A DNA stretch of 64,000 bases from an uncultured Pelagibacteraceae bacterium. Lineage in GTDB: Bacteria; Pseudomonadota; Alphaproteobacteria; Pelagibacterales; Pelagibacteraceae. Shown here piece after piece: positions 62,903 to 63,641 of the stretch. The stretch is taken from assembly GCA_902596975.1 (NCBI GenBank), contig CACJWS010000004.1:45288-109287 (forward strand), in the 5' to 3' direction. The notes under the pieces were generated by a model that was not told the origin of the DNA, searched no databases, and saw nothing but the letters and a program-made list of their open reading frames with translations. The position numbers and the translations under genes are program-made. Each line of letters starts with the position of its first letter. The stretch's first letter is position 1.

Positions 62903-63082
62903 ATGACTATAGATGGTGAAATTCCTACAAGCTATTTTTTAATTATATCTTTAGGTTTAACTATACTGAGTTATTTGGTTTACAAAAAAAATGGAAAATC
63001 ATTAGAAGTATATTTCTTATCAGTTTTAACAATAATTTTCTATTTATCTTATTTTATTCTAATTTTCGTTGGACCTAGATAG
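62903..63082 (+). CDS. 59-residue membrane protein of unknown function
   Basis: Starts MTIDGEIPTSYFLI; two hydrophobic helices (about 10-24 and 36-55) separated by YKKNGKSLEVY, ending FVGPR. An orderly two-helix hairpin with a basic loop, so probably a real small membrane protein. No family recognised. Lies between the recombinase and the structured RNA. Confidence 0.5.
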   Translation: MTIDGEIPTSYFLIISLGLTILSYLVYKKNGKSLEVYFLSVLTIIFYLSYFILIFVGPR

Positions 63083-63176
63083 TTTTTTAACGCTATTCAC
63101 AGCTGTTAAAAACCCTTAATAATCAACTATAAAGTGATACTAATCATATATGCACTATGATAATCTCTTAAATGAA

Positions 63177-63365
63177 TTAAGAGGCAACTCTTAACTGACC
63201 ATCTGGGGAAAAATCGAGAGATTCAAGCCCAGAGGGCAGAAAACCACGCAGAGTAGCGCTAAAATTGCGGGGTGGAAGGCATGGCGGTAGCGCATACAAC
63301 GACGTGCCAAAAACTACTGATCTTTGTACCTGAAAAGGTGCAGAGATACAGGGTTTTTTCTGTAT
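63177..63365 (+). ncRNA. Candidate structured RNA or structured leader of the ogt-like gene
   Basis: G+C is about 52% over 63181-63300, against roughly 30% around it. Predicted plus-strand stems: 63177-63183/63188-63194 with GCAA loop; 63202-63207/63228-63233 enclosing AATC-GAGA-GATT (63212-63223); CCAC/GTGG (63244-63247/63272-63275); GGCATG/CGTGCC (63278-63283/63303-63308) enclosing GCG-GTAG-CGC; and a 14-bp stem 63318-63331/63336-63350 with GAAA loop. Three GNRA tetraloops on one strand fix the orientation. A competing stem ATACAG/CTGTAT (63346-63351/63360-63365) ends at the ogt ATG and excludes the base of the last hairpin. I do not recognise the class: not tRNA, tmRNA, RNase P, SRP or 6S by their conserved motifs. 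Confidence 0.6.
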
Positions 63366-63641
63366 ATGATTCTTAAAGGCACAAAGTTTCAAATTAAAGT
63401 CTGGAAATACTTGAAAACAATTAAAAAAGGTAGTGTTTTAAGCTATTCTGACGTAGCAAAGGGTATTAATAAGCCTAAAGCTGTTAGAGCTGTAGCTAAT
63501 GCTATTGGAAAAAACCCATATGCTCCTAAAATACCTTGCCATAGAGTAATCAGGTCTGATGGGTCTCTTGGAGGATATTCTGGTAAAGGCGGTATAAAAA
63601 CAAAGAAAAAACTGCTCAAATCAGAGGGTATTTTGCTCTAA
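63366..63641 (+). CDS. One-domain Ogt/MGMT-type alkyltransferase
   Basis: 91 residues from ATG 63366; upstream in-frame codons would read through the structured RNA. It is only the DNA-binding/catalytic domain: helix-turn-helix region VLSYSDVAKGINKPKAVRAVANAIGKNPYA, active site PCHRVI (Cys present) and GGYSGKGGIKTKKKLL. The N-terminal domain of Ada/Ogt is missing. Alkyltransferase-like (ATL) proteins are this size but have Trp for the Cys; here Cys is kept, so methyl transfer from O6-alkylguanine is expected. Confidence 0.87.
   Translation: MILKGTKFQIKVWKYLKTIKKGSVLSYSDVAKGINKPKAVRAVANAIGKNPYAPKIPCHRVIRSDGSLGGYSGKGGIKTKKKLLKSEGILL

Follow-up and report, generated by a model that had tools for sequence, protein, structure and literature searches.

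Background

A short G+C-rich stretch of DNA from a SAR11 bacterium, lying just before an alkyltransferase gene, raises the question of what such a folded sequence is for. The preliminary description of the locus, made from the letters alone, offered two answers: a free-standing RNA, or a cis-regulatory leader that controls DNA alkylation repair. These two answers make very different predictions about relatives. A leader should stay with its gene, and a free-standing RNA should bring its own start and stop signals wherever it is found. We compared the locus with its relatives across the order, and all positions below are those of the window, the whole stretch of 64,000 nucleotides that was analysed. 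The features discussed are collected in Table 1.

Identity of the folded interval

The covariance models settle the family. With cmscan, 63170-63310 on the plus strand matches Rfam RF02035 (IMES-2) over model positions 1-141 of 141, with all four hairpins, at 162.9 bits (E 5.8e-43) where the gathering score is 54.7 bits. The preliminary description had held that the stretch resembles no RNA family and had itself named a hit to a known class as grounds for refutation; the covariance model returned such a class, so that claim was wrong. We regard it as nearly certain, judging by sequence comparison, that the stretch is a copy of the already catalogued IMES-2 family. IMES-2 and four tRNAs are all the RNAs that reach the gathering threshold in an Rfam scan of the whole window, and a permissive scan of 63000-63420 (E up to 10) otherwise gave only eukaryotic microRNA and snoRNA families far below threshold. 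Rfam gives RF02035 the type 'Gene', and the varied neighbours and the terminator-like end described below agree with a separate gene.

We know of no function for IMES-2, an orphan RNA from marine metagenomes. The motif was reportedly described from such metagenomes by Weinberg et al. in 2009, and that description is said to have found it abundant as a transcript in seawater. The locus thus belongs, on good support, to a known family of orphan RNAs, and what we add is new anatomical detail.

The fold itself is real. The 189-nt interval first proposed, 63177..63365, folds to -71.2 kcal/mol, whereas 200 dinucleotide shuffles average -44.8 (z -6.9) and none of them goes as low. It is also the G+C peak of the window: only 19 of 63812 slices of 189 nt reach its G+C, and all of them cluster here. 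The value is 47.1%, against 28.0% for the whole window, and the first estimate of about 52% was too high. The start of the proposed interval does not stand, as the model begins at 63170; the RNA is predicted to end in the U-run at 63354-63359. An antisense open reading frame at 63177-63392 is a mechanical listing. The predicted 5' end of the RNA spells ATG AAT TAA at 63172-63180, a start, one sense codon and a stop, and several relatives have no ATG there.

Table 1. Features of the IMES-2 locus and its neighbours, in window positions
Feature	Positions	Strand	Basis or detail
Tyrosine recombinase (phage-integrase family), 317 aa	61866..62819	-	Pfam PF00589, E 6.7e-21
Small predicted membrane protein, 59 aa, upstream neighbour	62903..63082	+	No Pfam match; membrane nature is our reading
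DnaA-box-like 9-mers	63084..63101	+	Proximal 63093-63101 (CTATTCACA), 1 mismatch; distal 63084-63092, degenerate
Promoter-like element CAACTATAAAGTGATAC, likely -35 region	63124..63140	+	Conserved in relatives
Putative -10-like TATGATAAT	63156..63164	+	Position relative to RNA start
IMES-2 RNA core (RF02035)	63170..63310	+	cmscan match
Predicted whole RNA: core, terminator hairpin and U-run	63170..63359	+	Both transcript ends predicted
Hairpin 1, GCAA tetraloop 63184-63187	63177..63194	+	7 pairs, 4 of them changed on both sides; 98.8% of cells paired
Hairpin 2, interrupted stem, GAGA tetraloop 63216-63219	63195..63239	+	11 + 4 pairs
Hairpin 3, loop with GCGCUA	63243..63273	+	6 + 2 pairs, 8 of 8 with both-sided changes
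Kissing strand A, GCGCUA	63256..63261	+	Pairs with 63288-63293
Hairpin 4, loop with UAGCGC	63278..63308	+	9 pairs, 5 with both-sided changes
Kissing strand B, UAGCGC	63288..63293	+	Duplex energy with strand A -8.0 kcal/mol
Intrinsic-terminator-like hairpin, then GGGUUUUUU	63311..63359	+	Fold; U-run 63354-63359
Short alkyltransferase, DNA-binding/catalytic domain only, PCHR motif, 91 aa	63366..63641	+	Pfam PF01035, E 2.9e-32

Stems and loops

The alignment holds 73 nonredundant relatives, 44 taken from genomes that match the Rfam model (two of these loci came by way of the alkyltransferase search) and 29 found with a loop pattern. RNA sequences below 200 nt were excluded and the remainder was thinned at 96.5% identity to reach the 73. 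Five loci with a full or partial match (L040, L079, L204, L215, L220) are excluded from the counts; the expression used for the 5' hairpin missed them. The loop pattern behind the 29 sequences fixed the loop heptamers, so invariance at those positions is overstated.

Compensatory changes in the stems, the check that had been proposed for this RNA, are plentiful. Taking the Rfam stems and the loop-loop helix described below together, standard pairs make up 93.9% of cells, and 32 of the 45 pairs show changes on both sides across the 73 relatives. None of 500 shuffles matches any of the five measures used, and slid versions of the same helices are only 32-41% paired. The two segments of hairpin 2 are paired in 93.5% and 91.4% of cells, with both-sided changes in 12 of their pairs. 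Hairpin 4 includes one Rfam column pair that is never standard in the 73 relatives; in the window's own sequence it is a G-A mismatch within the stem.

The loops are conserved as well. The six columns of loop 1 read GGCAAC in 69 relatives, GGCGAC in one, GCAAGU in two and GUAAGU in one. A GNRA loop is thus read directly in 70 of 73, and the remaining three, all g32 sequences, have it shifted or as GUAA. Loop 2 is GNRA in 69 of 73 as GAGA, GCAA or GAAA, the four exceptions being g32 and g38 sequences; this variation inside the GNRA class suggests that the shape of the loop matters. Three GNRA loops (GCAA, GAGA and GAAA) had been claimed for the stretch and all three are present. The third caps the terminator hairpin and varies among relatives, with UUCG in L272 as an example.

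A likely contact between two loops

Beyond the stems, the alignment points to a pairing between the loops of hairpins 3 and 4. The alignment was built without this pairing as input. Over the six possible base pairs 96.8% of cells are paired, and three of the six pairs have changes on both sides. No shuffle among 500 reaches the covariation score, and both-sided cells number 12 against 1.2 in shuffles, with slid controls anywhere from 3 to 55% paired. Two of its five measures are reached by some shuffles: 14 of 500 attain the count of both-sided pairs and 144 of 500 that of further pair types. The helix is thus supported by the score and the cells and not by every measure.

The individual pairs make the pattern plain. 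The first is GC in 60 relatives, UA in 2, UG in 1 and something else in 8 (two further cells are gaps); the second is CG in 69, UA in 3 and other in 1. The third is GC in 67 and AU in 6, the fourth CG in all 73, the fifth UA in all 73, and the sixth AU in 59, GU in 9 and other in 5. The pair is therefore not formed at the first position in 8 of 71 scored sequences, at the second in 1 of 73 and at the last in 5 of 73. Compensated strands include GCACUA with UAGUGC in L248 and GUGCUA with UAGCAC in L259 (the gap in these two relatives is read as an effect of gap placement). In L265 the strands are GUACUA and UAGUAC, and L268 and L269 both have UCGCUG opposite UAGCGA. The changes fall in L265 (g35), L248 (g36), L259 (g39), L270, L271, L272 and L274 (g38 and g32), and L268 and L269 together with L197 (g1), and those on both sides in at least five lineages. 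As these belong to separate genera, or to one genus but far apart in it, the changes must have arisen several times independently.

The two loops change in step, and so they likely pair with each other. Their comparison across relatives makes a 6-bp kissing pair between hairpins 3 and 4 the likely arrangement. This pair is absent from the structure line given by cmscan, and the original 2009 drawing may already have it. We also considered a dimer held together by loop 3, which is palindromic here. Its self-complementarity is gone in L248 and L259 even though the match between loops 3 and 4 is retained, so we reject the dimer.

The predicted ends of the RNA and its upstream elements

A terminator-like hairpin with a U-run follows the core in 67 of the 73 relatives. 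The other six fall below the threshold, and by eye all of them have a hairpin with a shorter U-run. The sequence of the hairpin differs widely between genera.

Upstream, an element resembling CAAC..A...AGTGATA lies about 50 nt 5' of the first hairpin in 57 of 73 relatives. A stricter version of this pattern occurs once in the genome of the window, at the IMES-2 site. Across ten genomes it has six exact occurrences, in four of them, and two of these are at IMES-2 genes (G000 and G207). The stricter pattern fails at the IMES-2 site of five carriers (G200, G203, G219, G240 and G385), so it is too strict for counting carriers. Its occurrences elsewhere are two in G082, a genome without the RNA, and others in G207 and G200. 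The idea that the element marks a wider regulon was rejected: one hit in G082 lies 5' of a frame that we read as a LacI-type regulator, and a scan there gave only two eukaryotic matches, both below threshold, so the hit looks like chance.

Further upstream is a pair of 9-mers that we liken to the DnaA box, taking its consensus to be TTWTNCACA. At a fixed place before the 5' hairpin, -95 to -78, the 73 relatives have 16 perfect 9-mers, 52 with one mismatch and 5 with two; control windows of the same flanks have 0, 23 and 200 of 965 with zero, one and two mismatches. Put differently, 68 of 73 relatives have a 9-mer with at most one mismatch, against 3.7% of 22200 windows from 400 kb of G207, and a head-to-tail pair with at most two mismatches is found in 31 of 73 against 3 of 15980 windows from 400 kb of G207. 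The related sequences are not independent, so all these counts for upstream elements measure conservation and are not independent trials. Allowing up to three mismatches, the tandem pattern gives about as many hits in six genomes as its reversed control and is hence unspecific. The g32 tandem site, with two mismatches, is equalled at one other place in G200 and at three others in G203. The case for a DnaA box therefore rests on the fixed position. The promoter-like element and the 9-mers are also recognisable in g32 and g38, where the gene neighbourhoods differ. Site and position suggest a possible control of IMES-2 by DnaA.

Gene neighbourhood

The observation that the RNA adjoins the alkyltransferase start is correct. 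The ATG at 63366-63368 lies 6 nt past the U-run, so the alkyltransferase mRNA must either read through the RNA gene or start inside it. The short distance in this genome counts in favour of the leader idea. In its own genus the usual order is recombinase on the minus strand, small protein, RNA and short alkyltransferase. A frame with the PCHR motif is found within 450 nt downstream in 122 of 147 RNA loci, a count in which some loci are the same contig counted twice.

The remaining 25 of the 147 loci have no such frame, and 21 of these have at least 1 kb of downstream DNA in which to find one. Across genera IMES-2 sits in at least three gene contexts, and outside its own genus the neighbours examined are unrelated. 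As we read the proteins, g35, g36 and g39 have an mnmA-like gene and a membrane protein on the opposite strand, g32 has a nuclease and an SRAP-like gene on the opposite strand, and g38 has a SelO-like gene and an RmuC-like gene. The gene downstream of the RNA is on the opposite strand in g32, g35, g36 and g39. No fixed link to one class of downstream gene, the mark of a leader or riboswitch, was found.

The reverse case occurs as well. Five genomes of the same genus (G012, G019, G022, G024 and G038) keep the order and orientation of recombinase and alkyltransferase with no IMES-2 between them. The distance between the two genes is 260 to 745 nt in these five against 546 in the window. In two of them, G022 and G038 (L176 and L172), the stop of the small protein runs straight into the start of the alkyltransferase. 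IMES-2 was not found elsewhere in the five, in assemblies that are 72-100% complete. The matching regions of RNA-less genomes hold no Rfam family at gathering score apart from tRNA. The recombinase keeps its place with and without the RNA, so it behaves like a resident gene and not like part of a moving element.

A cis-regulatory leader for DNA alkylation repair thus fails as a general role: the gene is kept without the RNA in five genomes, at 25 loci no such frame follows the RNA within 450 nt, and the RNA closes with a terminator-like hairpin. The other answer holds up well. The terminator-like end, an upstream element that persists across contexts, the covariation of the stems and the change of gene context between genera, with three contexts at the least, all speak for a free-standing RNA, and we consider the free-standing nature of IMES-2 nearly certain. 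Having its own promoter-like and stop signals, it is likely an RNA in its own right and not a switch for the adjoining DNA-repair gene.

A side observation on the neighbours may be recorded here. In three contexts (L272, L271, L270 and L170) they read as DNA repair or recombination genes, namely SRAP-like, RmuC-like and alkyltransferase. The SRAP-like and RmuC-like names are protein readings, and the mnmA context does not fit the trend.

Distribution across genomes

The RNA is present as a single copy in its own genome. Among 200 relatives IMES-2 is matched in 62, all from the same genus; each has a single match, which in one case is truncated where its contig stops. Across the order, 200 of 397 genomes match, again with one per positive genome, in 6 of 13 genera that share one family label; restricted to high-quality genomes the figure is 75 of 151. 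Roughly every second genome sampled from the order therefore lacks it. A class-wide draw gave 3 matches in 385 genomes, all in the same family. The exact loop pattern occurs in at least 119 stretches of the genome collection, labelled Pelagibacteraceae or Pelagibacterales and mostly from single-cell genomes. An exact loop-loop pattern had no hits in viral_contigs, so we reject a phage-borne RNA as far as close copies go.

In a tree of the integrase and the alkyltransferase the five RNA-less genomes fall among carriers, in three places as drawn and in at least two when open forks are allowed. The bootstrap of this tree is not settled, and one row, L079, is wrongly labelled RNA-less (it is a loop-pattern hit) and is included in the tree's change counts. 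As it stands the tree favours repeated loss of IMES-2 within its own genus.

What the RNA may do

Comparison of sequences establishes the family identity, the covariation of the stems and of the loop-loop contact, and the terminator-like end. It likewise shows that the upstream region is conserved, that each positive genome has a single match and that the RNA does not depend on the genes beside it. The reading that we prefer, and which we think has somewhat better than an even chance of being right, is that this copy of IMES-2 is a single-copy gene for a small structured RNA whose two loops likely kiss, with a predicted promoter and terminator of its own, likely acting in trans, probably by binding a protein, and not a leader of the alkyltransferase. 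Transcription would start near 63170 and stop at 63354-63359. Hairpins 3 and 4 would then fold together through their 6-bp kissing contact, and the compact body would present the GNRA-capped hairpins 1 and 2. Conserved unpaired residues could then contact a protein, and DnaA at the upstream 9-mers could tie the amount of RNA to the state of replication.

The step to a protein partner is argued from anatomy. In our reading of the alignment the conserved residues are mostly taken up by stems and GNRA loops, by short linkers or by the loop-loop contact. Most of them are thus bound in the fold and little is left over as an antisense seed, which favours a protein contact. Taken alone, the idea of a compact, protein-contacting RNA has in our view slightly less than an even chance; the preferred reading as a whole stands higher, since its family identity and free-standing character are nearly certain.

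The main alternative is a base-pairing small RNA, with loops open for a target mRNA and a U-rich end that binds Hfq. Many Hfq-dependent RNAs are free-standing with a terminator hairpin and a U-run, as IMES-2 appears to be, and the heptamer GUAGCGC, repeated in two loops, could serve as a seed. However, these loop heptamers pair mutually and co-vary, so they are tied up in the fold, and the covariation of the stems runs along the whole length. We give an antisense role a modest chance, clearly on the unlikely side.

A bolder version of the protein-binding idea is that IMES-2 belongs to a regulatory ribonucleoprotein specific to SAR11: a kissing-folded RNA with a dedicated promoter driven by DnaA, reporting the state of replication, old in the family and repeatedly lost, in genomes with no recognisable 6S RNA. 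It is speculative as a whole and we allow it only a small chance.

Could IMES-2 be a stand-in for 6S RNA and bind RNA polymerase? The 6S model RF00013 finds nothing in 24 SAR11 genomes (13 with IMES-2 and 11 without, among them G000, G012, G200, G203 and G207), where a Caulobacter control was positive, and abundance was reportedly described for the IMES-2 class in 2009. But 6S RNA is one long rod with a central bubble, unlike the successive hairpins and kissing pair of IMES-2, and the 11 genomes that lack IMES-2 also have no 6S match. We find the idea quite improbable.

It is more improbable still that the conserved unit is a DNA element, a site for DnaA binding or replication of which the RNA is a by-product of transcription. 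The DnaA-box-like 9-mers at their fixed position would fit such an element, but compensating changes in the stems and in the loop-loop contact are not needed for a function at the level of DNA, and GC skew over 20 stretches of 20 kb from G207 was too weak to place a replication origin. Least credible of all, on the neighbourhoods set out above, is the alkyltransferase leader, to which we assign next to no weight, and we regard the lead into alkylation repair as closed.

The locus is worth pursuing for what it places within reach. Few cells in the sea outnumber those of SAR11, and their protein regulators are few. A structured RNA with DnaA-box-like sites upstream is therefore a reasonable candidate when asking how these cells link physiology to growth. 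IMES-2 is now placed in SAR11 contigs with predicted ends, a promoter-like element and a tertiary contact, all of which can be tested in cultures, and the list of genomes that carry the RNA and of those without it adds to this testability.

Comparison with known RNAs

Two well-known bacterial RNAs can be set aside. ARAGORN gives four tRNAs and no tmRNA in the window, and alpha_tmRNA (RF01849) is found separately in 23 of 24 genomes, including on another contig (C10) of the same genome, so IMES-2 is not the tmRNA. It is like 6S RNA (RF00013) in being small, free-standing and structured. The 6S model finds nothing in 63000-63420 even with E allowed up to 10, and this together with the different architecture rejects the identity. 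As for SAR11 itself, it is either without a 6S RNA or has one too diverged for RF00013.

IMES-1 (RF02034) shares the naming series of IMES-2, a series of marine environmental RNAs. The permissive scan of 63000-63420 did not bring it up; it also gave no match in 130 relatives, a search in which the controls were silent too, so that this count does not prove absence.

Closer in habitat is the fourth motif of Meyer et al. 2009 (PMC2704228), which the relevant passage of that paper presents as a likely separately transcribed RNA of Candidatus Pelagibacter ubique, a three-stem junction between SAR11_0635 and SAR11_0636. By that same passage a glycosyltransferase gene lies 5' of the motif, as one does upstream here. 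By its description, the three-stem junction differs from IMES-2. The passages searched of two further papers (PMC5069720 and PMC2864571) do not mention 'IMES'.

The nearest relation is the catalogued family itself. The locus matches IMES-2 (RF02035) over its full length and has the same stems as the model. It differs from the cmscan model in what surrounds and joins those stems: the terminator-like 3' hairpin, the upstream elements and the loop-loop pair seen here.
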